IMG/VR virus record: IMGVR_UViG_3300034198_005353
Coordinates: 1-23,525 of that record
Origin: a virus
DNA: 23,525 nucleotides
Reading direction: 5' to 3' (one strand)
In this document: positions 3,082 through 22,391 of the stretch, one piece after another
Position numbering within the stretch: position 1 is the stretch's first letter
Layout: the number at the start of each line of letters is the position of its first letter
Made by a program: the position numbers and the translations under genes
Notes under the pieces: generated by a model
What the model was told of the DNA's origin: nothing
Seen by the model: the letters and a program-made list of their open reading frames with translations, nothing else
Databases searched by the model: none

Positions 3082-3105
3082 CACTTCCACCCCCGCCTAT
3101 CCTGC

Positions 3106-3126
3106 GGTTGTTCTGCACAGCTGCAG
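3106..3126 (+). promoter_or_regulatory. Putative phage late promoter, copy 1 (T7 phi6.5 position)
   Basis: This is the first of four copies of a 21-base element: two purines, T, W, G, K, any base, then CTGCAC, three free bases, then TGYAG. Here it reads GGTTGTT, CTGCAC, AGC, TGCAG. It lies in the gap after the exonuclease stop, where T7 has promoter phi6.5. The last base is the G of the GTG start proposed for the next small gene, so either that start is wrong or the mRNA is nearly leaderless. Function is inferred from repetition and position. Confidence 0.6.
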
Positions 3127-3317
3127 TGGAAGAAGATCCGATCATCACTCAGCGGCTAGTTGAATGGCTGGAGGGGATCTTCCCCGACCGTGTGCCCGAT
3201 GCCACCGCCACCGACCAGCAGGTTCGAGTGGCGATGGGTCGGGCTGAGGTCGTGCGGTTCATCCGCCAGAAGCACGAACAGCAGCAGGAAGAAGGCAAGA
3301 CATTCGAGGAGCTCTGA
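3126..3317 (+). CDS. Small acidic hypothetical protein in gp6.5 position (63 aa)
   Basis: The product is a small two-helix protein: ITQRLVEWLEGIFPD, a short linker, then AMGRAEVVRFIRQKHEQQQEE. Short proteins with a VEWLE helix and a VVRFLR-type helix are common just before the portal genes of T7-like phages. Their function is unknown, and I cannot name a family. The start is uncertain. GTG 3126 is the nearest start that keeps the whole first helix, but it overlaps the putative promoter and has no Shine-Dalgarno sequence. TTG 3108 is an alternative. An internal ATG at 3234 would leave only the second helix. The stop overlaps the next ATG (TGATG). Confidence 0.6.
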   Translation: MEEDPIITQRLVEWLEGIFPDRVPDATATDQQVRVAMGRAEVVRFIRQKHEQQQEEGKTFEEL

Positions 3318-3712
3318 TGTGCACCGGCGGCGGTGGAGGCGGTGGCGTTATCACCACACCCGACACCAGGGCTTACGACCGACTGGCTGACGCCCAGATC
3401 CGCGCCATGGAATCGGCGCGAGACGGTGCGCTGTCGCTCAAGCAGCAGGAGCTGCAGGCCACGCTCGCCACCCAGCAGCAGACCCTGGAGAAGCTGAACA
3501 CCGCCAGGACTGCCCGGGCCAACGAGACCGCCGCCAACGCTGCCCGCATGGCGGCGCTGATCGGCCCACCCTTGCCTGAGAAATCAGCCAAGCCGCCGGT
3601 GATCGGCAGCGATCGGGCATCGGCGCCGAAGGCCCGCAGCCGCAGCACGCTGCGGATTGACCGGCAGACCGCCACCAGCACCGGCCAGGGCTCTGGCCTC
3701 AACATCTCCTAA
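3317..3712 (+). CDS. Minor virion protein, T7 gp6.7/gp7.3-like (copy A)
   Basis: The protein has 131 residues. It starts MCTGGGGGGG, continues with a long helical, Gln/Ala-rich coiled-coil-like region (about 20-85) and ends in a basic segment RSRSTLRIDR followed by STGQGSGLNIS. T7 gp7.3, a virion protein needed for tail assembly and adsorption, ends in a very similar way (a basic KSLSV-type segment, then a Gly-rich GGINI end), and T7 gp6.7 begins with Met-Cys. Position between exonuclease and portal also matches. GAGGAG lies five bases before the ATG. The next gene looks like a paralogue with the same ends. The assignment rests on the ends and position, because the middle is low-complexity. 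Confidence 0.6.
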   Translation: MCTGGGGGGGVITTPDTRAYDRLADAQIRAMESARDGALSLKQQELQATLATQQQTLEKLNTARTARANETAANAARMAALIGPPLPEKSAKPPVIGSDRASAPKARSRSTLRIDRQTATSTGQGSGLNIS

Positions 3713-3714
3713 CC

Positions 3715-4134
3715 ATGTGCACCGCACCCCCACGCCCCCCGAAGATCGTCACGAAGGGGCCAAGCAAGTCAGAGGTCCGAGCCCAGGAGCGGCAGCTGGC
3801 CAGCTACCAGGAGCAGATCCGGGTGCAGCAGGAGAGTGCGGCCGCACAGCTGCAGGCCCAGATCGAGGCGGCGGCTGCCGAGACCAGGCGGCGCGAGGAG
3901 GAGATGGCTGCCCTCCAGCAGCAGCAGCAGCAGCAGCAACAGGCGATGGCGCAGCAGCAGACCGCCCAGCAGGCGGCGGCCTTCACGGTCACGACCGCCG
4001 CGGCGCCGGCCGACATGACCGGCACCGAGACCACCGTGGCGACGACACCGAAGCGCAAGCGGACCGACTCGCTCAAGGTGGGGGCGCCAGCGGTTGCCAC
4101 CGATGCAGGCACCGGCCTGAACGTCGGAGTGTGA
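3715..4134 (+). CDS. Minor virion protein, T7 gp6.7/gp7.3-like (copy B)
   Basis: The protein has 139 residues and begins two bases after copy A. It starts MCTAPPRPPKIVTKG, close in style to T7 gp6.7, which also begins Met-Cys and has early Pro/Lys residues. A long charged coiled-coil follows (EVRAQERQLASYQEQI to RRREEEMAALQ) and leads into a run of nine Gln encoded almost only by CAG (from base 3916). The tail is Ala/Thr-rich, then basic (KRKRTDSLKVG), and ends ATDAGTGLNVGV, matching the end of copy A. The same kind of virion role is likely. There is no Shine-Dalgarno sequence before the ATG, so translation probably depends on re-initiation after copy A. One base separates its stop from the portal start. 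Confidence 0.6.
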   Translation: MCTAPPRPPKIVTKGPSKSEVRAQERQLASYQEQIRVQQESAAAQLQAQIEAAAAETRRREEEMAALQQQQQQQQQAMAQQQTAQQAAAFTVTTAAAPADMTGTETTVATTPKRKRTDSLKVGAPAVATDAGTGLNVGV

Positions 4135-4135
4135 G

Positions 4136-5803
4136 ATGACAGCCGAGCACATCTACAACCAGCTCAGCAGCATCCGCGAGCAGTACATCACCCGGGCGAG
4201 GGAGTCGGCGAGCTACACCATCCCCTACGTGGTGCCGCTGGCCGACTACGTGAACGGCCCGACGAACGAGGCCTACGACCAACCGTGGTCTGGCATCGGC
4301 GCCAGGGGAGTCAACAACCTGTCAAGCCGGCTGATGCTGGCGGTTCTGCCCGCGACCGAAGCGTTCTACCGGTTCACCATCGACGAGGCAGAGCGGGCAG
4401 CGCAGCGCAGGATCGTGGAGCAGCAGCTGACGGACGAGGGGCTCAGCCCTGAGGAGGTGGCAGCGGAGGTGGCGCGGCAGGAGACCGAGTACGACCTGGC
4501 CCTGTCGAACCTGGAGCAGGCGGTGCTGCGCGAGATCGAGGCGACGAACGACCGGGTGGCGGTGTTCCAGTCGCTGATCCAGCTGCTGATCGTCGGCAAC
4601 GTGATCATGCACCTGGGCGAGGAGGGCCTGCGCTACCACCCCCTCCAGCGGTACGTGCTGCGCCGGCACCCGCATGGCCCGCCGGCCGAGGCAGTGATCT
4701 GCGAGATGGTCAGCGAGGCATCGCTACCGGAGGAGGCCCGGGCCCTGCTGACGCGGGAGATCAGCCCCGGCGACGAGGCCGCGCCCAGCCTGGACAACCG
4801 GCACAAGGTCTTCACCCACGTGAAGTGGGGCGAGGACCGGGTGGAGTGGCACCAGGAGATCAACGGCAAGGAGATCGAGGGCACCAGCGACAGTGCCCGG
4901 CGGGATGAATCGCCGTGGATCCCGCTCCGCATGTATGCGATCGACGGGCAGGACTACTCCCCCGGCTACGTGGAGAGCAAGTGTCTGGCGGATCTGCACA
5001 CTGCCAACGCCCTGACCCAGGCCCTGATGGAGGGGGCGCTGGTGGCGGCTCGCACCGTGTTCGGGCGGAAGCCCGGGGCGCTGGTGCGCAACAAGCAGTT
5101 TGCGGAGGCGAAAAACGGCGACGTGCTGACCATGAACGAGGGAGATGTGTTCCCCGTTCAGGCCAACAAGCAGAACGATCTGGCCACCGCCCAGCAGGCC
5201 CTGGCTCAGGTGACGGCCTCGCTGTCCGCCAGCTTCATGCTGAGCTCCGTCCGCGATTCAGAGCGCACCACCGCGGAGGAGGTGCGGCTACAGGCGCTGG
5301 AGATCGAGAACAGCCTGGGCGCCGTCTACGCCATCCTCACCAGCGAGATGCAGGCGCCGTTCATCAGCTGCAAGCTGGCCCAGCTCACGAAGAAGAAGCG
5401 CATCCCCTCGATGCCGGAAGGACTGGTCAGGCCGGTGGTGAGCGTGGGCCTGGCGGCTGTCGGCCGCAACAACGATCTGGAGAAGGTGGCTCGCTTCATG
5501 CAGCTGGGCCAGCAGTTCGGTGGGCCTGAGTTCATGGCCCGGGTGAATCAGGAGGTGCTCTACAAGGAGCTGGCCTCGAAGATCGGCATGACGGCCGCCG
5601 GCCTCATCAAGAGCGAGGGCCAGGTGCAGCAGGAGATGGCCGCAGCACAGCAGGCAGCGCAGCAGGCCGAGATGGCCAAGCAGGCCATGACCGCACCGGC
5701 GGCAGATCCGCAGCGCCTGGCCAGCGCCGCTCAGACCCTGCAGGAGATGGGCGGCCAGCCGCCGCCTGATGCGACCACCCAACCAATGGAGACCCCAGCG
5801 TGA
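4136..5803 (+). CDS. gp8: Portal (head-tail connector) protein
   Basis: The protein has 555 residues, close to T7 gp8 (536). It forms the dodecameric ring at one capsid vertex, through which DNA is packaged and ejected and onto which the tail is built. The N-terminus IYNQLSSIREQYITRARESASYTIPYVVP and the following GARGVNNLSSRLMLAVLP are classic for the Head-tail connector family (T7 gp8). Later hallmarks include SPGYVESKCLADLHTANALTQA and the region ERTTAEEVRLQALEIENSLGAVYAIL. The C-terminus is Gln/Ala-rich and probably flexible. GGAG lies seven bases before the ATG. The stop overlaps the GTG of the scaffold gene by four bases, which would couple portal and scaffold synthesis. Confidence 0.95.
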   Translation: MTAEHIYNQLSSIREQYITRARESASYTIPYVVPLADYVNGPTNEAYDQPWSGIGARGVNNLSSRLMLAVLPATEAFYRFTIDEAERAAQRRIVEQQLTDEGLSPEEVAAEVARQETEYDLALSNLEQAVLREIEATNDRVAVFQSLIQLLIVGNVIMHLGEEGLRYHPLQRYVLRRHPHGPPAEAVICEMVSEASLPEEARALLTREISPGDEAAPSLDNRHKVFTHVKWGEDRVEWHQEINGKEIEGTSDSARRDESPWIPLRMYAIDGQDYSPGYVESKCLADLHTANALTQALMEGALVAARTVFGRKPGALVRNKQFAEAKNGDVLTMNEGDVFPVQANKQNDLATAQQALAQVTASLSASFMLSSVRDSERTTAEEVRLQALEIENSLGAVYAILTSEMQAPFISCKLAQLTKKKRIPSMPEGLVRPVVSVGLAAVGRNNDLEKVARFMQLGQQFGGPEFMARVNQEVLYKELASKIGMTAAGLIKSEGQVQQEMAAAQQAAQQAEMAKQAMTAPAADPQRLASAAQTLQEMGGQPPPDATTQPMETPA

Positions 5804-6693
5804 GCGCCAACACCGTAGACATCAGCCAGATGGTGGGCCCCGGGCAGGAGGAAGTCCTGGCCGAGTTCCTCGCTGGCGACACCACCCCCGGCGGTGCACC
5901 TGCCCCCGCCACCGAGGGCGACGCCCTCGACCAGTTCCTCGCCGCCCAGGAGCAGAACGAGCAGAGCCAGCAGCCGCCAGAGGATGACGGACTGCCCGAG
6001 AAATACCGGGGCAAGTCGCCGGCCGAGGTCTACCGGCTCACCCTGCAGGAGGCCGAGTACCGGGCGAAGCAGGGCCAGCAGCCACCCGAGCCGGCCCCCG
6101 AGACCTACACCCCCGAGCTGGGGAAACAGCTCTATGGCGAGACGGTGGCCGGCGCCATCGCCGCTGCCGAGATCAACCCGCTGGAGATGGCGGCCAAGCT
6201 CAAGGCCGGCGAGGACGTGAGCGACTACACCAAGGCGCTGGTGGAGAAGGGCGGCATCCCCGAGGCGGTGCTGACTGCCTACCTCGCTGGCCTGGCCCCG
6301 GCCCCGGCCACGCAGCAGAGCGGCGGCCTGAGCGAGGCGGACCAGGCCGAGATCAAGGCGGTGGTGGGCGGCGATGCCGAGTTCGCCCAGCTGGCCCAGT
6401 GGATGCAGGGCAACCTCAGCGCCGAGGAGCTCGCCGACTACAACGCTGTGGTCGATGCCGGCGACAAGCGGGCCATCCGCCTGACGCTGCGCTCCCTGAG
6501 CGCCAGGGCCAAGGGCGCCACTGCTCCCCCGCCCACGCCGAGGCTGATCGGTGGCACCGACCCCGGCCCCGCTGGCCTGGACTTCCCCACCAGAGGCGAC
6601 TGGGAGAAGGCCAGATTCAGCCGTCGGTATGAGGGAGACGCCAAATACAGGGCGCAAGTTGACGCTGGACTCGTCAGATCGAGCTGGGCCTGA
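5800..6693 (+). CDS. gp9: Capsid assembly scaffolding protein
   Basis: The protein has 297 residues (T7 gp9 has 307). It is acidic and rich in Glu, Gln, Pro and Ala, as expected for the internal scaffold that shapes the prohead and leaves before or during packaging. Recognisable parts are the acidic N-terminal half, the segment DDGLPEKYRGKSPAEVYRLT (a motif seen in podovirus scaffolds), a central helical region (GGDAEFAQLAQWMQGNLSAEELADYNAVVDAGD) and the basic C-terminal end RGDWEKARFSRRYEGDAKYRAQVDAGL, which should bind capsid protein. It starts with GTG inside the portal stop (GTGA), with GGAG upstream. It sits directly between portal and capsid as in T7. Confidence 0.93.
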   Translation: MSANTVDISQMVGPGQEEVLAEFLAGDTTPGGAPAPATEGDALDQFLAAQEQNEQSQQPPEDDGLPEKYRGKSPAEVYRLTLQEAEYRAKQGQQPPEPAPETYTPELGKQLYGETVAGAIAAAEINPLEMAAKLKAGEDVSDYTKALVEKGGIPEAVLTAYLAGLAPAPATQQSGGLSEADQAEIKAVVGGDAEFAQLAQWMQGNLSAEELADYNAVVDAGDKRAIRLTLRSLSARAKGATAPPPTPRLIGGTDPGPAGLDFPTRGDWEKARFSRRYEGDAKYRAQVDAGLVRSSWA

Positions 6694-6708
6694 TAGCTTC
6701 GGGGCATG

Positions 6709-6729
6709 AGTTGTGCTGCACACCTGTAG
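6709..6729 (+). promoter_or_regulatory. Putative phage late promoter, copy 2 (before the capsid gene)
   Basis: The second copy of the 21-base element reads AGTTGTG, CTGCAC, ACC, TGTAG. It lies in the 108-base gap between scaffold stop (6693) and capsid start (6802), 72 bases before the GTG. In T7 this gap holds promoter phi10, the strongest late promoter. All 12 invariant positions of the element are kept. The right arm has T where the other copies have C. The rest of the gap holds no terminator that I can see. Confidence 0.65.
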
Positions 6730-6801
6730 AGATCGAGCCCGCTGAGGCGGATAACTCGCTGATCGAACGGCTGAGACAGGCGCTCGCAAACCTTAGCCCC
6801 C

Positions 6802-7806
6802 GTGGCAGACGCCTTTCTTTCCCGTCAGGGTCAGATCGCCGGAACTGGTGATCCGACCGCTCTTTTTCTCAAGCTCGGTTTCAACGAAGTCATCGCCGCC
6901 TTTGAGCGGGATTGCATCTTCAAGAACTGGGTCCGTACACGCAACATCACCAAAGGGAAGTCCGCAGCCTTCCCTGTCACCGGCCGGCGCACGGCTCGCT
7001 ACCACGTCCCTGGCACCCCGATCCTGGGGGAGACCAACGCCCCCAGCGCGAACAACGAGGAGGTTGTCAACCTTGACGCCCTCATCATCGCCGATGAGGT
7101 CGTCTACGACCTTGACGAAGCGATGTCGTACTACGAGGTTCGCCAGGACATCACCAGGGAGCTGGGCTCTGCCCTAGCCCGCGACTGGGACGCCCGGGCT
7201 GCCCGGGTGATCCATGCCTGCGCCAAAAGGGTCACGCCCCAGCTGGCCAAAGCGATCAACGCTGACCGGATCGGCCAAACTCAAGTGCTCACGGCCGGCT
7301 ATGCCGCTGCCAACAAGCAGGCGAAGGGCGACGAGCTGGTTTCGGCGATCGGCAACCTGAAGGTGGCGATGAAGAAGAAGGATGTCCCCACGGACAACCT
7401 TGTTCTTGTGGTTCCCCCCGATGAATACGACTTCCTGAACGAGTCGTCCAAGGCGACCAACCGCGATTTCACCAGCGGAAACAATGGTGGTCTCGATGAC
7501 GGTCGCGTTCTTCGGGTCAAAGGGATCCCGGTCTACGAGTCGAACCACGTCACGCAACCCGCGTACACCAACGTGGCCAACTCGGACCGGAACATCGACT
7601 ACCAGCAGAACCTGACTCGCTGCCGGGGCCTGCTGTTCCACCGCGATGCGATCGGCGTGCTCACGCTGAAAGCGCCGCAGATGGAGATGACCGCTCCCAA
7701 TGGCGACTTCTTCAAGATGTATCAGGCGACCCTGATGCTGGCGAAGATGGCCATTGGCATGAAGTCGCTCCGTCCTGAGTGCGCTGCTGTCATCGAAGTG
7801 CCCTAA
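6802..7806 (+). CDS. gp10: Major capsid protein
   Basis: The protein has 334 residues (T7 gp10A has 344) and an HK97-like fold by family. Matching landmarks are DPTALFLKLGFNEVIAAFER at the N-terminus, GKSAAFPVTGRRTARYHVPG, the central ALIIADEVVYDLDEAMSYYEVR, the VPPDEYDFL region, and the C-terminal FHRDAIGVLTLKAPQMEM followed by GMKSLRPECAAVIEV. It forms the hexamers and pentamers of the shell. The start is GTG at 6802, the only start that gives the normal N-terminus. It has a C-rich leader and no Shine-Dalgarno sequence, which is surprising for the most abundant virion protein. Codon use is somewhat less GC-biased than in neighbours, as is common for highly expressed genes. It is preceded by putative promoter copy 2 and followed by a strong terminator. 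Confidence 0.96.
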   Translation: MADAFLSRQGQIAGTGDPTALFLKLGFNEVIAAFERDCIFKNWVRTRNITKGKSAAFPVTGRRTARYHVPGTPILGETNAPSANNEEVVNLDALIIADEVVYDLDEAMSYYEVRQDITRELGSALARDWDARAARVIHACAKRVTPQLAKAINADRIGQTQVLTAGYAAANKQAKGDELVSAIGNLKVAMKKKDVPTDNLVLVVPPDEYDFLNESSKATNRDFTSGNNGGLDDGRVLRVKGIPVYESNHVTQPAYTNVANSDRNIDYQQNLTRCRGLLFHRDAIGVLTLKAPQMEMTAPNGDFFKMYQATLMLAKMAIGMKSLRPECAAVIEVP

Positions 7807-7833
7807 GCTCCACCTGGAACGAGTGGAGGCCTG

Positions 7834-7864
7834 AGGCTCCCGGCTCACGCTGGGGGCCTTTTTT
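7834..7864 (+). terminator. Intrinsic terminator after the capsid gene (T-phi position)
   Basis: An 11-bp stem (7834-7844 with 7849-7859, two G-U pairs) closes on the four-base loop TCAC and runs directly into six T residues (7859-7864). It starts 27 bases after the capsid stop. T7 has its main phage-polymerase terminator T-phi in exactly this place, where it boosts capsid mRNA relative to tail mRNA. It is the only convincing hairpin plus T-tract seen on the coding strand of the window. Confidence 0.88.
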
Positions 7865-7878
7865 GTGCCCGCCGATAG

Positions 7879-7899
7879 GATTGGCCTGCACCCCTGCAG
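7879..7899 (+). promoter_or_regulatory. Putative phage late promoter, copy 3 (before gp11)
   Basis: The third copy of the 21-base element reads GATTGGC, CTGCAC, CCC, TGCAG. It starts 15 bases after the terminator T-tract and ends seven bases before the gp11 ATG. Part of it (ATTGG, then GCACCC) resembles the published promoter of cyanophage Syn5 RNA polymerase as I recall it (ATTGGGCACCCGTAA). This copy also forms a perfect seven-bp dyad (GCCTGCA with TGCAGGC around CCCC), so a hairpin or protein-binding operator is an alternative reading. Confidence 0.65.
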
Positions 7900-7906
7900 G
7901 CGTCCA

Positions 7907-8569
7907 ATGGGCCTGGCCAATGAAGCGGTCACACCCGGCAGGACCAGCCTGCTGGAGGCGGTGAACATCTGCCTGTCCAACATCGGCGAGGCGCCGATGG
8001 CCACGCTGGAGGACACCCAGAACCTGGAGGCCGCCACAGCCGAGCGCACCATCCTGGAGTTCCACAAGGAGGGGCAGAGCAGGGGCTGGAGCTGGAACAA
8101 CGAAACCGCCTATCGCTTCGAGCGCGACTCGGGCACGCTGGAGATCGTGCTGCCCTCGAACGTGGTGCGGTTCGTGCCCGACCGCTACCAATGGGCCGGC
8201 CGCTTCCAGCTGCGCGGGCAACGGGTCTACGACCTGCACGCCCGTAGCTTCCGCATCGAGGACGTGGAGTTCATCGAGGCGGACATCACCAGCCTGCTGC
8301 CGTGGAACGAGTGCCCTGAGGCCTTCAACCGCTGGACGCTGATCCGAGCGGCGCGGGTGTTCTCTGGCCGGGTGCTCACCAGTGACTCCGTGTTCCAGTA
8401 CACCCTGCAGGACGAGCAGGCGGCACTGGTGGAGCTGGAGCGGATCGAGAGCGATCAGGCCCAGGCCAACGTGCTGACCGACGGCTACGGCTCCCGGCCG
8501 TTCGGCACCTTCAACCCCGCCACCGGCCTGATGGGGCGCCGGTCCACCAGCGTGCTTCCCCGTGGCTGA
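7907..8569 (+). CDS. gp11: Tail tubular protein A
   Basis: The protein has 220 residues (T7 gp11 has 196). It forms the ring that joins the portal to the nozzle. The hallmark N-terminal block is LLEAVNICLSNIGEAPMATLE, followed by an ERTILEFHKEGQSRGWSWNNE block equivalent to the T7 segment ending SRGWTFN. The C-terminus is a long helix with QDEQAALVELERIES. The start is ATG 7907. A longer frame beginning at GTG 7865 would translate the end of the terminator region and the repeated promoter-like element, so it was rejected. The start lies only seven bases after that element, with CAGG as a weak ribosome-binding site. Its end overlaps gp12 by eight bases. Confidence 0.93.
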   Translation: MGLANEAVTPGRTSLLEAVNICLSNIGEAPMATLEDTQNLEAATAERTILEFHKEGQSRGWSWNNETAYRFERDSGTLEIVLPSNVVRFVPDRYQWAGRFQLRGQRVYDLHARSFRIEDVEFIEADITSLLPWNECPEAFNRWTLIRAARVFSGRVLTSDSVFQYTLQDEQAALVELERIESDQAQANVLTDGYGSRPFGTFNPATGLMGRRSTSVLPRG

Positions 8570-11006
8570 TCTCCGCTCTTACCTGATCCCCAACCTTGTC
8601 CAAGGGGTAAGCCAGCAGCCAGACGGACAGAAGGATCCGAGCCAGGCAGAGATCCAGATCAACGCCGTCAGCTCAATCACCGATGGCGTGCGGAAGCGAG
8701 CCGGCACCAGGGCCCTGGCCCGGGTCAGCACGACCCCGTTCGGCGATGCCTTCACCCACTCGATCCTGCGCGACGACACCGAGAAGTACATCGCCGTCAT
8801 CACCAACAGCACCATCAAGGTGTTCGATCTGGAGGGCGCCGAGATCCCGGTGAACGCCCCAGGCGGCTACGGCTATCTGGCCAGCGTGGTGGAGGCGAAG
8901 GCGGACATCAGGGCGGCCACGATTGCCGATTTCACCTTCATCAGCAACACCCGGACCTCCACCGCGATGCTCAGCACGCTGGCGCCGGCGGTGCCACGAC
9001 CCACGACCCACGAAGCACTGGTCTGGATCAGGGCGGCCAACTACGGGCAGACCTACCGGGTGCGGGTGAACGCCCTCACGGCCACGGTCCAGACGGCAGT
9101 GGCGCCGGTCATCATCACCGGCGGCGTCACCACCGAGTACCGGATCAGCAGCGCCGACATCGCCCAGTCCGTGGCCACGGCGGTGGCGGCGGCCGGCATC
9201 ACCATCACCCGGCAGGGATCGGTGCTGCACATCACCAGCAACTCGCCCATCACGGTGGATGCCACCGATGCCCGGGCGAACGCCGACGTGGTGGCGATCA
9301 CCAACAACGTGCAGACCTTCAGCGATCTGCCCACCATCGCCCCGCAGGGGTATCAGGTGGAGGTGGTCGGCGACCCAAACAACCAGTTCGACGGCTACTA
9401 CGTGGAGTTCGTGCCAGCCGTGGGGCAGGGCACCTTCGGCGAGGGCACCTGGCAGGAGTGCGCCGCGCCTGGCGTGCAGTTCAGGATCAACCCGGCGACG
9501 ATGCCCCACGCCCTGATCCGCCGGCCGGATGGTCAGTTCCACTTCGGCCCGCTGAATGGTGCGACCGCCGCAGCGGTTGGCGTCGATGTGCCGCTGTGGG
9601 GCGAGCGGGTGGCGGGCGATCTCGACACCGCCCCAGACCCTGGCTTCATCGGCGTGCCCATCAATGACCTGTTCATCCACAAGAACAGGCTGGGGATCCT
9701 GGCCGACGAGCGGGTGATCCTGAGCCGATCGGCCGACCTGTTCGCGTTCTTCCCCGAGACCGTCACAGCGGTGCTGGACACCGACCCGATCGAGATCACC
9801 GCCAGCAGCAACAGGGTGAGCGTGCTGCGCTACGCCATCTCCTACCAGGACGAGCTGATCCTGTTCAGCGACCAGCTGCAGTTCCGGTTCAGCAGCGGCA
9901 GCGACGTGGGCCTCACGCCGCAGAGCGCCCAGCTGTCGGTGCTGACCCAGTACGAAATGGACCGCCGGGCCAAGCCCCTGCAGGTGGGGCCGGCCATCGT
10001 GTTCGGCCAGAAAAACGGCGAATGGATGCAGTTCCGTGAGTTCTCTATTCGCGGCGCCGGCACTGCGCTGATCGCTGATGCTCAGAGCCTGACGGAGTAT
10101 GTCTCCACTTATGTCCCCGGCGGCGTCTTCCGCCTGGCATCTAACGACACCGGCAACACTTGGTTTGCCATCAGCGATAAAACAGGCTTCGCCGATCGTG
10201 TCTACGTCTACAAATACTTCTTCCGCAACAGTGGCAGCGGCACGGAGAAGGCGCAGTCCAGCTGGTCGTATTGGCAGCTGAACGGCGCCACAAAGGTGCT
10301 GCAGATTCTGGTGCAGGAGGAGGTGCTGTTCCTGCTGGTGGAGTATCCAGACGGCTCGGTGTGGCTGGAGAGCATGAACGTGGGCGACAAGCAGGAGGAT
10401 GAGGCCTCCCCCACGCCGGTCCTGCTCGATCGCCGGGTGGGCACCACCACCGCCACGCCTGCCCCCCTGCGGATGGCGCGAGGTGTCTTCAACCCGCTAC
10501 TGCAGCAGACCACCTGGACGCTGCCCTACACCGTGGCGGCCCTGAGCGAGGTCTGGACGACATGGGGCGGGGCCTGGCCGGGCGGCGTGAAGCTCGGCAG
10601 CAGCAACACCAACACGGTGGTCGGCCTGGGCGACTGGTCTGGCGTGGACGTGTGGGCCGGCGAGCGGTTCGAGTTCCGCTACCGCTTCAGCCGGTTCAAG
10701 TACATGAGGGACGTGGGCGGCGGCCGGGTGGCCGCCAACGTGCTGCGGACGCAGGTGCGCCGGGCGAAGCTCCGTTACCACGGCACCGGCTGGTTCCGCG
10801 CTGTCGTGGCCCCCACCTACCGGCCCGAGGCGGTCTACAGGTTCGACGGTGTGGCGGACGGCCAGGGCCTGAAAGATGGCGTGTTCACCATCCCGATCAT
10901 GGGCAAGGGCGAGGAGACGGTGGTGGAGATCCTGAACGACACCCCCCACCCCTGCCAGTTCCTGACGCTGGAGTGGGAGGGCCTGATCACGGGCAAGAGC
11001 CGATGA
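8562..11006 (+). CDS. gp12: Tail tubular protein B (nozzle)
   Basis: The protein has 814 residues (T7 gp12 has 794). It forms the hexameric tail nozzle to which the fibres attach. The start block RSYLIPNLVQGVSQQPDGQKDPSQAE and the NAVSSITDGVRKRAGTR segment are diagnostic of the family. Further landmarks are PINDLFIHKNRLGILADERVILSRSADLF and the QDELILFSDQLQFRFSSG block in the middle. The start is GTG 8562 inside the end of gp11, with a C-rich leader and no Shine-Dalgarno sequence, so translation is probably coupled. A stretch near 10030-10230 is less GC-rich than the rest and may mark a recombination patch. The last codons overlap the next gene by four bases. Confidence 0.95.
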   Translation: MADLRSYLIPNLVQGVSQQPDGQKDPSQAEIQINAVSSITDGVRKRAGTRALARVSTTPFGDAFTHSILRDDTEKYIAVITNSTIKVFDLEGAEIPVNAPGGYGYLASVVEAKADIRAATIADFTFISNTRTSTAMLSTLAPAVPRPTTHEALVWIRAANYGQTYRVRVNALTATVQTAVAPVIITGGVTTEYRISSADIAQSVATAVAAAGITITRQGSVLHITSNSPITVDATDARANADVVAITNNVQTFSDLPTIAPQGYQVEVVGDPNNQFDGYYVEFVPAVGQGTFGEGTWQECAAPGVQFRINPATMPHALIRRPDGQFHFGPLNGATAAAVGVDVPLWGERVAGDLDTAPDPGFIGVPINDLFIHKNRLGILADERVILSRSADLFAFFPETVTAVLDTDPIEITASSNRVSVLRYAISYQDELILFSDQLQFRFSSGSDVGLTPQSAQLSVLTQYEMDRRAKPLQVGPAIVFGQKNGEWMQFREFSIRGAGTALIADAQSLTEYVSTYVPGGVFRLASNDTGNTWFAISDKTGFADRVYVYKYFFRNSGSGTEKAQSSWSYWQLNGATKVLQILVQEEVLFLLVEYPDGSVWLESMNVGDKQEDEASPTPVLLDRRVGTTTATPAPLRMARGVFNPLLQQTTWTLPYTVAALSEVWTTWGGAWPGGVKLGSSNTNTVVGLGDWSGVDVWAGERFEFRYRFSRFKYMRDVGGGRVAANVLRTQVRRAKLRYHGTGWFRAVVAPTYRPEAVYRFDGVADGQGLKDGVFTIPIMGKGEETVVEILNDTPHPCQFLTLEWEGLITGKSR

Positions 11007-15200: not shown

Positions 15201-15584
15201 CCCCTCGACCTGGCGGCCATCTTCAGCTTCGAGACCGGCGGCACGCTCAACCCCAACGAGCCAGGGCGCGGCGCTGCTGCTGGTCGGGTGGGGCTGATCC
15301 AGGCGGGGCCGAACGAGATGCGGGCCTACGGCATCCGGCCGGGCCAGACCTTCGAGCAACAGATGAAGGGGGTGGAGAGGTACTTCATTTCGCGTGGCGT
15401 CCGCCCTGGCATGGGGCTGGAGGATCTCTACGCGATCGTCAACGGCGGGAATCCACGGGCAGGTTTCACGCCTGACGGAAACGGTGTGGTGGCCCGCTCG
15501 CCAGAAACCCTGCAACGGCTCAGAATCCATAGAGAACAGGCGCGTCGGCGTCTTGGCCTGATGCCGTCCCGAGGTGGTTCCTGA
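12276..15584 (+). CDS. gp15-like internal core protein with degenerate M23 and lysozyme-like domains
   Basis: The protein has 1102 residues (T7 gp15 has 747). Residues 1-650 are mostly helical, as in gp15-type ejection proteins. Residues 650-690 form a Pro-rich linker. Residues about 785-925 match the M23 peptidase pattern: EPGFD (807-811) where H-x-x-x-D is expected, GYGNLVEIRF, SAHHDEI (His876), GTWLGTQGRTGSTTG, and AHVSLDF (His909), where H-x-H is expected. Two of the three zinc ligands are thus changed. Residues about 956-1095 look like a lysozyme/lytic-transglycosylase domain with a likely catalytic Glu986 in SFETGG, GRVGLIQAGPNEMRAYG, and IVNGGNP near 1056. T7 keeps its transglycosylase domain at the N-terminus of gp16, so the module is placed differently here. 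AGGAGG precedes the ATG, which overlaps the gp14 stop. Confidence 0.8.
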   Translation: MAELPNNQIQPVARPVDSFIQPERIQTAAPAPVVLMPNPGGIRTIGQGSGGSVDGANQFQQLAQALAPFNQRLSEFAGAGLQLYASSEYQKGQQEAALAQARAEQQIRASGEQFAAETRRLENADPEAARMLDRVNPYREAGRVNQLSRMAGAEIETALMNEYRNTPDVVLWKDGDPRLTELRATAVNRVLDKYRLNPNTPGFLDYVLPQIGQGMDKVVSRQQQDRSQYLKATLGPAAAAEAVNEFAAAREAGRVEWVEFDLATGTQTRRSAELATDPEGFREGMRVRFTVIADRIARESGLQGESTQIIGEMFQRLAGLAAANGGDPLLLQIAARTGVGPILSDRTRMMAGELYGLEMLESADKFGAMAARQQERKLEQGLAAFEEELLQITAATPEDGPERGQAIAAAISKAQEQGLPIGKLNERAEAALAVTDKLYARGFSSEPAAEFLDRVQGMPIGQWNPQEFDRAVIAALKSVAPEDRDKLRARANAIRAEKEGKRGKLDPLAQPVITGAVKDTLARFYPKGVTAAALRGADVTGLLSWGDANVAAASGRLLPAFQAVASDALDAAAVKKGGALTPAETTTVVRQALQKAMQDEGFMRSLLPGSSTGEPSVGGAPAQPPAPGTTRRLPPPPGKKESALPTVTRANLDNINTDRLRRPEPVLGFNDAAEEAARIANGGRPSASVIRAARRAGMSPGQFILRQLDAYPQAPTPPDLRKRLLMSSAGPQAVANNLSGWAAASAPVQAAGNWFLNALMPPATAATIAPGMRFYGGGRDAEGPFTGDGYSPLQGVQITSAVDASGEPGFDMVIEGGRRGARLAWPTSFEVLRVVRGSRAEFRRDKGDPRRGYGNLVEIRFTDPTTGRKVDVLSAHHDEINPALQPGRRFGPGTWLGTQGRTGSTTGAHVSLDFFDPGAKTASGATLQIRNRFRDGFARGDRFGAPRAQQRGTGFMSRDRRGQAVIASARRMGVNPLDLAAIFSFETGGTLNPNEPGRGAAAGRVGLIQAGPNEMRAYGIRPGQTFEQQMKGVERYFISRGVRPGMGLEDLYAIVNGGNPRAGFTPDGNGVVARSPETLQRLRIHREQARRRLGLMPSRGGS

Positions 15585-18500
15585 TGCCCCAAGAATGGAA
15601 ACAAGTCAACGGCCGCTGGCAGTTGACCGGGGGGCAGTCTTCCGACGACCTGATCCCTTACATCCCTGCAGGCCAGCCGCAGCAGGCGGCGGCCAAGCCC
15701 AAGCCGAAACCCAAGCCGAAGCCACGCCCGAAGCCGCAGGGCTTCATGCAGCAGCTGTGGAACCAGACCGGCGGGAAGCTGGTCAACGATGCCACCTACG
15801 AGCTGCGCCAGCTCCGCACCGATCCGCTGCGATCGGCGCAGCGCCTGGCCGGCAATGCCGTCCCCCTGCTGGTGCGTGCCGCCACCGGCCAGGCCTGGGC
15901 CAACCCGAACCTGCTCGCCCCCCTGGGCGCGGGCGCGGGCGACAACGTGCTGCGGATGAGCTACTCGCTGTTCCAGCGGCACGTCCAGAAGCGTGACAAG
16001 GCCGACCCATCGGCAGGGCCCATCGGCCAGTTCCTCGACGCGAACGTGGACAGGACGTACCGGCTGCTGGGGGCGAAGCCGCCGTCAGAGATGAGCCAGC
16101 CAGAGCGTGACTTCGACTCCGCTGTGCGCTCGGTGGGCCTGAACATCGCCCTGGGCTTCATCCCCGGCGCGGGCCTGGGCGCTGCTGGCGCTCGCACGGC
16201 GGCCGGTGCCGTCACCCGCGGCGCGGGGGCCGTGGGGCTGAACGAGTTTCTGAGCACCTTCCTCGACGACAACACCGGCGGGAACATCGTCAACCTCGTC
16301 AACGACCTGGGCGGCCTCAAGCTGCCCGGCGGCGTGAATGTGGGCCACGACGACATGGTGACGGCGGCCACGAAGTCGCTGGTGCCCAACGCCGTCCCCG
16401 GCGCCCTGCTGGGATCCGTGGCTGGCTTCGCCAATCTGGTGCGCCGCCAGCGGGCAGGCCGGCTGGTGGAGGAGGTGCGGACCTCCCGCAACCGGCTGGA
16501 GCGTGCCGGCGTGCAGGAGCCAGCCGAGGACGGCACCGCCAGGTTCACCCCAGAGGCGACCGACCCCGGCAATGCGGCGACGTTTGCCGAGGCGAACGCG
16601 ATGCGCGAGCAGCAGCTGGGCGGCCAGCCGGCCCCGGCCCCCTCGCCGGCTGCGGTGGGCCCCGAGGAGCAGATCGCCCGCAACAACGAGGAGATCGAGC
16701 GGCTCAGGGCTGAGCTGGGCGAGGAGGAGGTGCCGCCCCCGAACCCCGATGCCCCCGAGGCGGACGGGCTGCTGCGGATGACCGACGAGCTGGACGACCA
16801 GGAGCTGCAGGCGGTGGCTGCCACGCCTGGCCCCGTGGTGGACACCGTGAACCAGACGCTGCAGGCCCGGCCTGGCTTCGAGCCCAACCCGGCGATCCGG
16901 CCTGATCTGGTGGCGGCGCCCACCGACCGGCTCAGCCAGCTGTATCTGGACGGTTCCGGGGCGATGGAGCCGTGGGAGAAGCAGATCGAGGCCATCCCCG
17001 TGGATCAGCTGCGCTCGCTGGTGTTCCCCGGCAACAACCCGCAGATGGCGGCGCGGATCCTGGCCCGCACCGGCAAGCAGTTCAACGAGCTCACCCGCGA
17101 CGACATTCTGGGGCTGGTGCGCGAGATGGGCCTGGACGGGCAGACCGTCCTGCCCAACCGGATGCAGTCGGGCCAGTCGGTCGTTCGCACGGAGGACATT
17201 GACGCAGAGCCCGCCGCCTTCCAGTTCAAGGAGGGTGTGAACGCCCAAGGCGAACAGGCGGGCAACTCGCTGGGTGGCGTGAACCTCTGGGATCCCACCG
17301 CCGAGGGGATCATTCAGGTGTGGCGGGCCCCAGACGGCCGGCTCAAGGTGGTGAACGGCCACAACCGGCTGGCCCTGGCCAAGCGGCTGGGCATCCCCAG
17401 CCTCCGGGTGGAGGAGCTGGTGGCCACCACCCCGCAGGCGGCCCGGTCGCAGGGCGCGGTGGCGAACATCAGCGCCGGCAACGGCACCCCCTTCGACGCC
17501 GCGAAGTTCCTCAGGGAGACCGGCATCACGGACGAGGCGCAGCTGCGAGCCGCTGGCATCCCGATGGATTCCGGCTGGGGGCAGCAGGGCCTGGCCCTGT
17601 CGAAGCTGCCGGATGACCTGTTCCAGCAAGCGATCAACGAGCAGCTGCCGCTGCGGCGTGCCGTGCTGATCGGACAGAGCGGCCTTGATCCCGAGTCGAT
17701 GCGCTCGGCCTGGCGGATGGCCCTGGACAAGCCGGGGATGACCGAGGGCGTGCTGCGCGAGGTGATGGCCTACAACCGGGCCAACCCTGCAGGCGCCGCA
17801 GCTGCTGCCGCCGACCAGGGCGACCTGCTGGCCGGCACCGCCTGGGACATGAGCGAGAACCCGGCGATGGCCGCCAGGGCTGAGCTGGCCGCTGCTGTGC
17901 GGCAGATGCTCTCCAGCGACCGCAAGCTGTTCGGCACCGTGGGACGCCAAGCCGGCCGGCTGGAGGGGGCCGGCAACACGATCGACCGCACCGGCGCCAA
18001 GGCGATCAGCACCGAGGCCACGCAGGCGCTGGCCATGTTCGACCAGCTCAAGTACGTCTCGGGCCCCGTGGCCGACCTGCTGAACCGTGGCGTGGACGAG
18101 GTGCTGGCCGGCGGCAAGCCTGGCGCCGTGGCCCAGATCATCAAGGCCGATCTGGCGACCGCCATCGAAAACACGATGACCCGGCAGGCGGATGAGGCCG
18201 CCGAGGCCCCCATCGCCGCAGCACCGGCGGAAGCCCCCGGGCAAACGGGCCTGTTCGGCGATGCCGCAGCGCCCGAGATGGCCCCGGCCCGCCCGCTCAC
18301 CGCTGACGAACGCGAGGCGCTCAAGATCCAGGTGGTGAAACGGGCGGCCGCACAGGGCGAGATCCGGCCCAGCGCCACCCCTGAGCCTGAGCTGCCCGCC
18401 CCCGGCCGGGTGGGGCTAGAGGAGGCGATCGCCGACATCGAGGCCCGTGGCGGGATCGAGCCGGGGAGCCCCGGCGCCCAGGCGCTGGCTGATGAGGTTC

Positions 18501-18946
18501 GGCTGGCCCAGGAGTTCCAGGTGCAGGACGCCGCCATGCGGCAGGACCAGGAGGATGCGCTGCGCGATGCGTTCGGCTACGAGGCCAAGACCTTCGAGGA
18601 GAAGAAGGAGCTGGGGATGATCGACGGCTGGGATCCGGCCGATTCGATCGAAGACATGCCGAAGGTGGCCGACATGCTGGACGCTGCCAACGACCTGGCC
18701 GCCGGGATCGACAGCAGGGCCGCCACCAGAAACGCTGCCAGGGTGCAGAGGGCCAAAGAGTTGGCCGATGAACTGGCCCCTCGCCCGACCCTCCCCGAAC
18801 CGCTGCGGATCAGCGACACTTCACCAGAGGCGGCCCCTCCCAGGCCCTTGGCGCGGCGGATCGACAACGAGAACCGCGCCAAGATCCTGGCCAACAACCA
18901 GGAGATGGACGATCTCCGACAACAGGCCATGAAGGAGGGCTGCTGA
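15584..18946 (+). CDS. Giant ejection-module protein with ParB-like domain
   Basis: The protein has 1120 residues. Residues 38-51 are Lys-Pro repeats like a periplasm-spanning TonB spacer. Residues about 185-300 include Gly/Ala-rich, weakly hydrophobic segments (GLNIALGFIPGAGLGAAGARTAAGAV). Residues about 537-640 contain a ParB-like core: IQVWRAPDGRLKVVNGHNRLALAKRLGIP, with NGHNR at 591-595, followed by ISAGNGTPFDAAKFLRETG and a helical segment to about 720. The rest is Ala/Glu-rich and helical. ParB-like domains are known from phage polyvalent proteins that enter the cell with the genome, such as P1 DarB. It could be an ejected effector, part of a split gp16-like core, or both. GAGGTGG precedes the ATG, which overlaps the previous stop. 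Confidence 0.75.
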   Translation: MPQEWKQVNGRWQLTGGQSSDDLIPYIPAGQPQQAAAKPKPKPKPKPRPKPQGFMQQLWNQTGGKLVNDATYELRQLRTDPLRSAQRLAGNAVPLLVRAATGQAWANPNLLAPLGAGAGDNVLRMSYSLFQRHVQKRDKADPSAGPIGQFLDANVDRTYRLLGAKPPSEMSQPERDFDSAVRSVGLNIALGFIPGAGLGAAGARTAAGAVTRGAGAVGLNEFLSTFLDDNTGGNIVNLVNDLGGLKLPGGVNVGHDDMVTAATKSLVPNAVPGALLGSVAGFANLVRRQRAGRLVEEVRTSRNRLERAGVQEPAEDGTARFTPEATDPGNAATFAEANAMREQQLGGQPAPAPSPAAVGPEEQIARNNEEIERLRAELGEEEVPPPNPDAPEADGLLRMTDELDDQELQAVAATPGPVVDTVNQTLQARPGFEPNPAIRPDLVAAPTDRLSQLYLDGSGAMEPWEKQIEAIPVDQLRSLVFPGNNPQMAARILARTGKQFNELTRDDILGLVREMGLDGQTVLPNRMQSGQSVVRTEDIDAEPAAFQFKEGVNAQGEQAGNSLGGVNLWDPTAEGIIQVWRAPDGRLKVVNGHNRLALAKRLGIPSLRVEELVATTPQAARSQGAVANISAGNGTPFDAAKFLRETGITDEAQLRAAGIPMDSGWGQQGLALSKLPDDLFQQAINEQLPLRRAVLIGQSGLDPESMRSAWRMALDKPGMTEGVLREVMAYNRANPAGAAAAAADQGDLLAGTAWDMSENPAMAARAELAAAVRQMLSSDRKLFGTVGRQAGRLEGAGNTIDRTGAKAISTEATQALAMFDQLKYVSGPVADLLNRGVDEVLAGGKPGAVAQIIKADLATAIENTMTRQADEAAEAPIAAAPAEAPGQTGLFGDAAAPEMAPARPLTADEREALKIQVVKRAAAQGEIRPSATPEPELPAPGRVGLEEAIADIEARGGIEPGSPGAQALADEVRLAQEFQVQDAAMRQDQEDALRDAFGYEAKTFEEKKELGMIDGWDPADSIEDMPKVADMLDAANDLAAGIDSRAATRNAARVQRAKELADELAPRPTLPEPLRISDTSPEAAPPRPLARRIDNENRAKILANNQEMDDLRQQAMKEGC

Positions 18947-18947
18947 A

Positions 18948-21900
18948 ATGTTCAGTTGCGATGACACCCAGCGCCGGATTCTGGAGCTGCAGGAGGAGAA
19001 CCGCCGCCTGGCGGCCGAGAGCGAAGCCAACGCACGGCTGCGGCGGGCAGGGGAGACCTTCGCCAAGGCCGAGGTGGGGGAGCAGATCCTGCTGCCAGGG
19101 CCTGGCGGGCGAGTGCGGACGATCGACACCGCCGACGTGAATCGAGGCCTGCAGCAGGTTGCCACCCTGATGGGCAGCGAGGACGTGCAGCGGTTCGTGG
19201 ACCGGGGCCTGGGCGAGAGTGCCCGCCCGGTCGGCGCCGATGCCGAGTGGCAGAACTTCGACCGGATCCTGAGGGAGACCGACGTTCAGGACGCCCGCGA
19301 CTATGCCCTGCTGGCCAGGGCGCTGGGCATCCAGTGGGGCGACATGAACCCCCGGGATCATGCGTTCGTCACGGAGGTGTACGACAAGACCCGGATGGCT
19401 GAGGTGGTGGCCAGGGCCTACAGCGATCTGGGCGTCACCATGAACGATGTGATGGCCCGCATGGCGAACGATGCCGCAGGCTTCACCGGGCTGGTGGAGC
19501 GGATGGCGCGAATCCGGCTGCTGGCCGATCGCTCGAAGAAGGGCTATCTGGATGCGGTCGGGCAGATCGACGCCTTTATGGACAAGCTGCCCGGTGCCGT
19601 GGTGCCGGATTCGCTGAAACAGGAGGCCTTCCGGTCCTACAAGCTGGCGCTGCTCTCAGAGCGGCACTACGCCTTTGCCCGCCGCCGCACCGGCCAGACG
19701 CTGCGAAGCCTGCAGGACGGACTGGACGAGCTGGGCGCCAATGATCTGCGGCTCGACTTCACGGACACCGACGAGGTGGAGGGCACCCTGGCGCTCACCC
19801 CCAAGGACGTGAGCAACAACAGCCATATCGGCAAGGTGATCGAGGCGGTGGACAACGGCGCCGCGGGCCAGCTGGAGCTCAAGGGGCTCATCACCGCCGC
19901 GAAGGTCGATGCACTGGACCCCAGAAGCCGGCTCGATACGGACTGGTTCAACACGCAGATGCGAAAGGCCAATGCCTGGGCGAAGGACTCGCAGCTGACG
20001 AACCTCAACACCCAGCTGAAGGTCAACATCGCCAGCAACTTGGCCATGGCCGTGTTCGGCCCCCTGCAGGTGATGCTCGAAAACGGGCTGACCAGCTACC
20101 GGGTCGGCACCAAGACCACCCGGCTGGGCCTGATCGAGAGCGCCAAGATCCACAGCATGGCGGCCCAGCAGGCGCTGGCGATGACCAGGGCCACGCTCAA
20201 GCAGGACATGCTCGACGTGTTCTACGAGGGCAAGGCCAAGTACACCACCAACGTGGACCTCTGGGGCGCCAAGCTCCCCAGCAACGAGCAGGAGATGGCC
20301 GAGGCCGACGCCATCCTGTCGATGAAGTACGAGCAGAAGGGCGGCCCGCTCAACCCCATCAACGTGGCGATCTGGGGCAAGAAATTGCAGGTGGCGACCC
20401 GGCAGGTGCTGGGCAAGGCGGTCCCCGGCGTGCGGCTGCCCTGGCGCCCGGGCCTGCGCGGCCTGGCGGCGACTGACGAGCCCTTCGCCAAGTACCACTT
20501 CCTGTTCCACCTGCGGGCCAACCTCGAAGTGAAGGCGCGGATGGAAGGCGCCCAGCTGGGCCTGCTGGACGAGACCAGCCGCAGCAAGTGGGTAGAGACG
20601 CGGATGCAGGAGGCGATCTACCAGACCACCCCCACCGAGGCGAACGTCAAGGCGCTGCGGCGGCAGCTGGGCATCAAGGGGTCGGACATGACCGACGACC
20701 AGATCGTGGACATGATCTCCGAGCGGGATCTGATTGGCTCGCCCACCCTCTCCACGCCCGAGTCGCGGGCGGCGATGGAATACAGCCAGTGGGCCAGGTT
20801 CCAGAACAAGCCCAAGAGCAGCGAAATCACCTGGGGCGGCGGCATCGTCCAGAAGGTGGACGAGGGCGTGCAGTCGGTCCGCTCCAGCTGGGTGATGGAC
20901 ACCCTGATCCCCTACTGGCGCTCCCCCATCAATGCCCTACTACTCGACCACCGGCTGAGCAGCTTCGCGCTGCTCGACACCGTAAAGGTGCTGACGGCCA
21001 AGGATCGGAGCCCGCAGATGGTGGCCAAGGTCAGGAGCAGCTGGATCATATCGTCCGCGCTGCTGAGCCTGTTCGCCGTGCTCGATGCCACCGGCAACAT
21101 CGACGGGGGCACCGCCAGCGACCCGACCAAGCGAAACCGGGTCTTTGGCATCCCCTACCTGGGCGGCATCCCGATCCTGAACACCCTCTTTCTCTGGAAG
21201 GACATCAAGGACGCCGCCGGCGCGGCGCGGGCCAGCAAGTTCGACGGAGACGAAATGATGGCCGGCGTCATGCAGGTGCTCACCAGCCAGATCATGCGCC
21301 AGACCGGCATCGGCACCCTGCAGGGCCTGATCCAGGCGCTGACCGATGCGAACAAAGGCGGGTGGGAGAAGTTCCAGCGGACGGTGGCCTTTGTCGGCAG
21401 CGGCCAGATCCCGCTGATCGGCCCGGTGCGGCAGGTGCAGCGGATGACCGGCACCGAGGACCGCGACCACTTCACCGATGGCGCCGACACCCCGAACCAG
21501 CGGTACATGGCGGACGAGGACGACCCGATCCAGGGCGTGCTCGATGGCCTGCGGAAGCTCGCCTATCAGACCCTGCCGATCATCGCCCAGCCCACTGGGG
21601 CCCCCCGGAAGATGACCGACTGGCTGGGCAGCCCAGTGGGCCACATCGCTGGCGTGGACCTGGCCAGGGCCATCCCCTTCTACCCGTGGGGCGCCTGGCC
21701 GAACGACAAGGTGTACGACGAGCTGGACGCCCAGGACATGCTCGATCCGCCCCGCCCGCTGCTGCAGAAGGTGCTCCGTGGCGTCGGCATGAGCGACCAG
21801 CTGCAGGCTGAGTTCAATGACATCTATGGCACGGTCAAGGGGGAGAGCATCGTGGGCCGGTTCGCCATGGCCGGCAAGAAGGTCAATGTCCGCTTCCCCA

Positions 21901-22343
21901 TGCCGGTGGAGGTGGTGGCCTCGAACGGCGTGCGGATCCGCAAGGACGGGGGCGTCACGATCCCGCTGGATCCGTTCCTTGAGAAGCACGTCAAGGGCAA
22001 GACCTTGATCGAGGCGCTGCGATCGCTGTTCAACGACCCGATCTACCAGGCGATGGAGGCCGACCCGCTCCAGTCGGCAGACCTGAGCGTGCAGGATCAG
22101 CCACGGGTGAAGCGGCGCCAGCGGCCGGCGCAGCAGATAATCCAGGCCATGAAGGACTACTACCAGCTGCTCACCGAGGACGAGCTGGAGCGGCGCGCCG
22201 CCAGCGGCAGGAGCCCCGAGGCGAAGCTGTGGAGCGACACGCTCACCAAGCAGGCGGACGACACCCGCCGCCGGTCGCAAGAGGAGCTCGACCCTGGCCG
22301 CCGGCAGAGCTGGCTGAGGCAGCTGATCGACGCTGTGAACTGA
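18948..22343 (+). CDS. gp16-like giant internal virion protein
   Basis: The protein has 1131 residues. It is largely alpha-helical with charged coiled-coil stretches, starting with DTQRRILELQEENRRLAAESEA. The central and C-terminal parts contain moderately hydrophobic helices (VNIASNLAMAVFGPLQVML; SSWIISSALLSLFAVLDATG), and the position directly before the tail fibre is that of T7 gp16. T7 gp16 spans the cell envelope during ejection and drives the first DNA entry. No transglycosylase motif is present at its N-terminus, in contrast to T7 gp16. That domain seems to sit at the end of the first giant protein of this module. AAGGAGG lies seven bases before the ATG. The stop is followed by a 48-base gap with promoter copy 4. 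Confidence 0.75.
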   Translation: MFSCDDTQRRILELQEENRRLAAESEANARLRRAGETFAKAEVGEQILLPGPGGRVRTIDTADVNRGLQQVATLMGSEDVQRFVDRGLGESARPVGADAEWQNFDRILRETDVQDARDYALLARALGIQWGDMNPRDHAFVTEVYDKTRMAEVVARAYSDLGVTMNDVMARMANDAAGFTGLVERMARIRLLADRSKKGYLDAVGQIDAFMDKLPGAVVPDSLKQEAFRSYKLALLSERHYAFARRRTGQTLRSLQDGLDELGANDLRLDFTDTDEVEGTLALTPKDVSNNSHIGKVIEAVDNGAAGQLELKGLITAAKVDALDPRSRLDTDWFNTQMRKANAWAKDSQLTNLNTQLKVNIASNLAMAVFGPLQVMLENGLTSYRVGTKTTRLGLIESAKIHSMAAQQALAMTRATLKQDMLDVFYEGKAKYTTNVDLWGAKLPSNEQEMAEADAILSMKYEQKGGPLNPINVAIWGKKLQVATRQVLGKAVPGVRLPWRPGLRGLAATDEPFAKYHFLFHLRANLEVKARMEGAQLGLLDETSRSKWVETRMQEAIYQTTPTEANVKALRRQLGIKGSDMTDDQIVDMISERDLIGSPTLSTPESRAAMEYSQWARFQNKPKSSEITWGGGIVQKVDEGVQSVRSSWVMDTLIPYWRSPINALLLDHRLSSFALLDTVKVLTAKDRSPQMVAKVRSSWIISSALLSLFAVLDATGNIDGGTASDPTKRNRVFGIPYLGGIPILNTLFLWKDIKDAAGAARASKFDGDEMMAGVMQVLTSQIMRQTGIGTLQGLIQALTDANKGGWEKFQRTVAFVGSGQIPLIGPVRQVQRMTGTEDRDHFTDGADTPNQRYMADEDDPIQGVLDGLRKLAYQTLPIIAQPTGAPRKMTDWLGSPVGHIAGVDLARAIPFYPWGAWPNDKVYDELDAQDMLDPPRPLLQKVLRGVGMSDQLQAEFNDIYGTVKGESIVGRFAMAGKKVNVRFPMPVEVVASNGVRIRKDGGVTIPLDPFLEKHVKGKTLIEALRSLFNDPIYQAMEADPLQSADLSVQDQPRVKRRQRPAQQIIQAMKDYYQLLTEDELERRAASGRSPEAKLWSDTLTKQADDTRRRSQEELDPGRRQSWLRQLIDAVN

Positions 22344-22363
22344 GCAGTGGCGCCGGGGGCCAG

Positions 22364-22384
22364 AATAGGCCTGCACTGATGCAG
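22364..22384 (+). promoter_or_regulatory. Putative phage late promoter, copy 4 (T7 phi17 position)
   Basis: The fourth copy of the 21-base element reads AATAGGC, CTGCAC, TGA, TGCAG. It lies in the only gap between the ejection genes and the tail fibre, where T7 has phi17, and ends seven bases before the GTG start, the same distance as copy 3 from gp11. All 12 invariant positions are kept. Confidence 0.65.
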
Positions 22385-22391
22385 AGCTGCG

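Follow-up and report, generated by a model that had tools for sequence, protein, structure and literature searches.

A putative phage RNA polymerase promoter at the late-gene junctions of a T7-like podovirus fragment and its S-SRP02-like relatives

The window, by which we mean the whole 23,525-base stretch analysed (IMG/VR record IMGVR_UViG_3300034198_005353), is a fragment of a T7-like podovirus whose plus strand encodes RusA-like, exonuclease, portal, scaffold, major capsid (MCP), tail tubular A and B, internal virion and tail fibre proteins (Table 1). Among named phages, Synechococcus phage S-SRP02 is the nearest to it (portal, 51%), and the marine fosmid phages S38-C3, S37-C6 and S31-C1 come next. 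Another record in IMG/VR, of 30,711 bases (G001, the twin), encodes portal and capsid proteins identical to those of the window, and extends 221 bases beyond it on the left, apparently (by eye) into the end of the SSB gene, and ~7 kb beyond it on the right. A search for a contig with the missing left end of the window phage returned the twin only. The start codon assigned to the gp11-like gene follows from its phrog_446 match, which begins at residue 22 of a longer GTG-initiated frame.

The first-pass annotation had described four copies of an asymmetric 21-base element, RRTWGKN-CTGCAC-N3-TGYAG, with 12 columns invariant across the copies, each copy at a gene junction and with no further full match. 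All of this was borne out exactly: the copies follow the exonuclease gene, precede the MCP gene, lie between a rho-independent terminator and gp11, and precede the tail fibre gene (Table 1), and the pattern has four exact matches in the window, every one on the plus strand. When up to three mismatches were allowed, the window yielded seven matches versus 0.86 expected, with none of 100 shuffles reaching seven, and the pattern read backwards gave zero matches in the window. Copy 1 ends on the G of the GTG start codon that opens the next gene, a 63-aa one conserved in S-SRP02, and relatives show the T-run and stem of the terminator before copy 3 at the corresponding position. Used by itself, the 14-base core is less specific, since its eight window sites with at most one mismatch comprise the four copies and four sites within ORFs (1350, 3842, 8234 and 18735). 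The twin has the same four copies and two more, all six in one orientation. The first of the additional copies, CTGCACCCCTGTAG at 24365, precedes an ORF (24403) that is holin-like by position and by resemblance to an S-SRP02 ORF (by eye); the sole Pfam match of this ORF falls below cut-off and is irrelevant. The second, CTGCACTCCTGCAA at 26977, precedes a TerS-like ORF (26993) that shares 31% identity with the S-SRP02 DNA-packaging protein PF11123 and has no Pfam match of its own.

Table 1. Features of the window discussed in the text (all start sites are proposed)
Feature	Coordinates	Strand	Details
Exonuclease (gp6-like), upstream of copy 1	1984..3081	+	phrog_107; PF02739
Element copy 1	3106..3126 (core 3113-3126)	+	Proposed start A3125, 1 nt before GTG of 63-aa gene
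Element copy 2	6709..6729 (core 6716-6729)	+	Proposed start A6728, 74 nt before MCP start 6802
RNA hairpin (25 nt), MCP leader	6734..6758	+	Covariation in both stems, 27 distinct sequences
Major capsid protein MCP (gp10-like)	6802..7806	+	phrog_267
Rho-independent terminator following MCP, shortly before copy 3	7833..7860	+	
Element copy 3	7879..7899 (core 7886-7899)	+	Proposed start A7898, 9 nt before gp11 ATG 7907
Tail tubular protein A (gp11-like)	7907..8569	+	phrog_446; ATG picked by homology
Element copy 4	22364..22384 (core 22371-22384)	+	Proposed start A22383, 9 nt before tail-fibre GTG 22392
Tail fibre (gp17-like), runs off window	22392..23525	+	phrog_13481

Comparison with relatives yielded a general core, CTGCANNNNTGNAR (CTGCA-N4-TGNAR, with C favoured after CTGCA). 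Thus the 21-base formula, exact in the window, is only partly general: the core shared with relatives is shorter, and the prefix varies there by junction, being GAGTTGNT before MCP and CATGAGGN before gp11. S-SRP02-like phages carry the core at homologous junctions, those that recur being exonuclease-6.5, scaffold-MCP, MCP-gp11, pre-fibre and pre-TerS. Of seven 36-44 kb records, all seven had a core match before TerS, six at scaffold-MCP and six before the fibre, and five each at exonuclease-6.5 and MCP-gp11, as read from the listed site contexts and, outside S-SRP02, with the downstream gene assigned by flanking-base similarity. These records have 10, 8, 10, 8, 7, 7 and 8 distinct sites, versus third-order Markov means of 0.30-0.60 and a largest single-shuffle count of 4; 49 of their 58 sites point in the late-gene direction, with both-strand matches counted there. 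Across 19 related records the core pattern gave 148 matches and its reversed form 13, the former count covering both strands, so that palindromic sites count twice.

For S-SRP02, 7/8 core matches are intergenic, compared to 11% of the genome, and the intergenic sites lie 4-188 nt upstream of a same-strand start. Because the core used, CT[CG]CAC...TG.A[AG], had been shaped partly by looking at S-SRP02, a second core was frozen on the window sequence only. Of its 10 S-SRP02 sites with no more than one mismatch, seven overlap intergenic DNA (binomial 7e-5), each of them on the plus strand, and 2/3 of the exact sites are intergenic (binomial 0.05). The same frozen core has 14 sites in S38-C3, five in S37-C6, three in Syn5 and two in S31-C1, which indicates that the element is not common to all T7-like cyanophages. 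The expected concentration at junctions is evident in S-SRP02 but incomplete at one mismatch, where 4/8 window sites fall within genes. Two further findings count against a promoter: in the more distant S38-C3, 4/7 matches are within annotated genes, and the spacing to a conserved upstream CATGAG/TANNAT varies between junctions. A 19-base form matching copy 3 was found in four contigs of the viral collection, always at the MCP-gp11 junction. One contig with this form, G021, is the nearest to the window in element type; in this contig an exact CTGCACTGATGCAG directly follows the polymerase gene, the exonuclease-6.5, MCP and gp11 junctions carry forms with one mismatch (SSB and 6.5 being assigned by gene order and by eye), and 4/8 of its one-mismatch sites are off-junction, three within the polymerase gene and one without assignment.

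Two other recurrences were observed. An exact core lies near the start of an acetyltransferase-annotated gene in five of seven genomes (S-SRP02, L007, at 31627; G002, G003, G004 and G005), where it may be an internal promoter or encode a conserved peptide; its place inside a coding gene counts against a promoter. The MCP-gp11 junctions of more distant relatives (e.g. L014, L048, L054, L086 and L090) have TANNAT and, after it, sequences that end in CCTGTAG or CCCGTAG; these resemble promoters of other polymerase specificity in the equivalent position.

A T7-like RNA polymerase gene was expected upstream of the element copies. S-SRP02 and relatives whose records reach the region have one, whereas no polymerase match was found in the twin or in the window genes scanned. 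Both fragments begin downstream of its expected place, in RusA or SSB; S-SRP02 has the order polymerase, SSB, RusA, and from its spacing, with the window beginning in RusA, the polymerase gene would end about 0.8 kb leftward. The enzymes of S-SRP02 and G021 have both T7-like families (PF00940 and PF14700), and the former matches T7 RNA polymerase structures by sequence (2e-52). The T7 catalytic residues D537, K631, Y639 and D812 are kept in S-SRP02 and six close relatives, with F at the Y639 position in the more distant G022 and G023. A match to the S-SRP02 polymerase occurs in 11/20 related records, and the G021 contig carries polymerase and elements together. One of the 11, the 60,395-base G013, has a polymerase only 28% identical to that of S-SRP02 and an MCP 63% identical to that of the window, a discrepancy suggesting that the contig may be a chimera or recombinant.

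A variant, TTCCACMCCTGCAG, was seen upstream of the polymerase gene at -134 to -146 in 6/6 genomes (S-SRP02 and G002-G006; e.g. ~16390 in L007), followed ~55 nt later in three of the six by a second, roughly inverted form (CTGCACAGGTGGGG twice, CTCCACATGTGGGG once), and variant sites also lie between polymerase and SSB in 4/6 genomes checked. Given that MarR-like and integrase genes precede the polymerase in S-SRP02, the upstream variants may be a promoter plus an operator.

The most serious rival to a promoter is that the element itself is a palindromic operator, its CTGCAC/GTGCAG half-sites being recognised by a dimeric regulator of the phage (in S-SRP02, for instance, the MarR-like or the KilA-N protein). 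The core is indeed near-palindromic, a feature unusual for phage polymerase promoters of this class and one that counts against our preferred reading; several sites have a perfect CTGCACNNGTGCAG, both the CTGCA and TGCAG arms are mostly kept in the subgroup nearest the window (the base after CTGCA varies), where the two-fold symmetry may thus be real, and MarR-like genes are present in S-SRP02, S38-C3, S37-C6 and S31-C1. On the other hand, C-7 is kept more than its mirror base (1.24 versus 0.94 bits before MCP; 1.34 versus 0.57 before gp11), the copies have no accompanying sigma-70 pair, and three of the four window copies end at most 9 nt from a start codon. Late genes of T7-like phages are, moreover, expected to be transcribed by the phage polymerase. 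We consider such an operator unlikely.

Paired arms could also act in RNA, as a hairpin that controls the stability or translation of late mRNAs from their 5' end or ribosome-binding region: the copies are foldable, and the stem of copy 3 can be extended (by eye) to the gp11 start codon. Arm covariation was assessed on 50 distinct cores, derived from 82 well-anchored rows among 105 distinct junction rows. The 23 weakly anchored rows (17/54 MCP, 6/51 gp11) were dropped; manual curation retained four low-scoring gp11 rows and re-anchored one MCP row. Over these cores, pairing was close to shuffled. At the gp11 junction, pairs 3-12 (reached by 97/2000 shuffles, with seven two-sided changes) and 6-9 (70/2000) were weakly above it, but 70/2000 is the lowest shuffle count at either junction, hardly varying pairs being uninformative, and all five outer pairs can form in 15/50 distinct cores only. 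The right-arm forms TGCAA, TGGAA, TGTAA and TGGAG occur against an unchanged CTGCAC, and C-9, A-8, T-3, G-2 and A+1 are nearly invariant, a combination that fits an asymmetric signal read by a protein. A hairpin or RNA operator is thus disfavoured by the absence of a clear pairing excess over shuffles in the 50 distinct cores, and we regard RNA-level action as very unlikely, the more so as a neighbouring hairpin in the MCP leader covaries strongly in the same kind of test.

That 25-nt hairpin consists of a stem of four, an unpaired C, a second stem of four, a tetraloop and an AYAM bulge, and begins 6 nt after A6728, the start proposed for copy 2, a position we count in favour of a promoter there. 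When all eight pairs were demanded in a scan of six genomes, the window, S-SRP02, S37-C6 and S31-C1 each had a single match, and S38-C3 and Syn5 had none. Lowering the demand to seven of the eight pairs gave a match in 37/60 distinct MCP leaders versus 11/1800 random windows. Four pairs exceed all 2000 shuffles. Since the search required pairing, the pairing percentages are biased in its favour, but that requirement alone does not account for the variety of pair types. A stricter search for a related form found it in 15/60 leaders, 14 of them outside the 37, and 9/60 had neither form. Automatic consensus folding of the MCP leader gave three pairs only, probably because the alignment is loose, and Rfam at gathering threshold returned nothing in the window or S-SRP02. 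The hairpin may stabilise or regulate the capsid mRNA.

Host transcription offers a further alternative, in which TANNAT before the gp11 and fibre copies is the -10 box of a sigma-factor promoter and the element is the initial transcribed sequence. TANNAT before gp11 is kept across a broad clade. Yet it is missing at that spacing before MCP and shifts by one base between subgroups (both by eye), and no -35/-10 pair was found near any copy: sigma-70 hexamers spaced by 16-18 nt number zero in 2800-8200 and zero in 21800-22700. We judge this reading highly improbable.

The proposal of a promoter set with a new specificity for a phage single-subunit RNA polymerase is thus supported as far as sequence goes: the element is probably the promoter of the phage's own T7-family enzyme. 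Early RNAs, including the polymerase message, would be made by the host RNA polymerase; the phage enzyme would bind CTGCAC (about -12 to -7), melt the adjacent TGN, and initiate at the invariant A or the following purine. The units so driven would be the gp6.5-like, MCP, gp11 and tail fibre genes and, in the twin, also the holin-like and TerS-like genes, with copy 3 restarting transcription right behind the capsid terminator. We infer the start base from register: S-SRP02 polymerase R671 and Q673 align with T7 R756 and Q758, which read promoter bases -9 and -8 in T7, and placing CAC at -9 to -7, as in Syn5, makes the invariant A of TGNAR the start (Table 1), the neighbouring purine being the alternative. 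As alignment of the specificity loop is uncertain, no base-by-base recognition is drawn beyond this register argument. Leaders would be 1, 74, 9 and 9 nt; starts 1-9 nt before three of the four genes would be unusually close, and this counts against a promoter. A bolder version, in which this polymerase clade enters its near-palindromic promoter in both directions or reads it as an extruded hairpin, launching almost leaderless late mRNAs, strikes us as distinctly unlikely, and would to our knowledge be unlike known T7-family enzymes.

The word promoter does not occur in the main text of the S-SRP02 paper (PMC8790148) or in that of the paper on its marine relatives (PMC3861242). Going by these two papers, we provisionally regard the proposed polymerase-promoter pair as new for the clade. 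If our preferred reading is true, a clade that includes a freshwater Synechococcus phage, S-SRP02, gains a new polymerase-promoter pair, the transcription map of S-SRP02-like phages becomes predictable from sequence, late messages with 1-9 nt leaders are predicted, and an enzyme is added that may be of use in RNA synthesis and cyanobacterial engineering.

Seven known phage promoters were compared, and none is close to any window site. T7 has phi6.5, phi10 and phi17 at matching gene junctions. The element resembles T7 late promoters in its several copies, single strand and matching junctions and in the Pfam families of the relatives' polymerase, but differs in having no TATA or GGG start, a near-palindromic core and much shorter leaders; the best window match to the T7 consensus TAATACGACTCACTATAG has 6/18 mismatches, and promoters of T7, T3, SP6 and K11 type all have at least 6/18 in the window. 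The Syn5 RNA polymerase promoter is ATTGGGCACCCGTAA (PMC3950665). The likeness noted earlier between it and copy 3 holds over GCACCC...T plus the upstream ATTGG, and Syn5 likewise has a cyanophage enzyme whose promoter aligns gaplessly (GCAC at -10 to -7, T at -3) provided that transcription begins at the A of TGNA. In contrast, the 15-bp Syn5 promoter is absent from the window (best match, start base included, 5/16 mismatches, at 16390 on the minus strand), Syn5 has just two promoters, at 4929 and 44797, instead of one per late unit, and the two polymerases share 23%. Identity of the two motifs was accordingly rejected (at least 5/16 mismatches), while the gapless core alignment still suggests the register. 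LUZ100 is a T7-like phage with an integrase and a MarR-like gene, with several polymerase-specific promoters, among them one for MCP and one before the polymerase (PMC10134795). Its promoter motif spans 17 bp and its polymerase has a 25% match to that of S-SRP02; the likeness drawn here covers gene content and promoter placement. Lastly, the best window matches to the CD23823 and KP34 promoters have 8/21 and 5/17 mismatches respectively, but both (PMC12272871, PMC6834552) are single-subunit polymerase promoters outside the T7 consensus, like the one proposed here, and that of CD23823 also starts with A.
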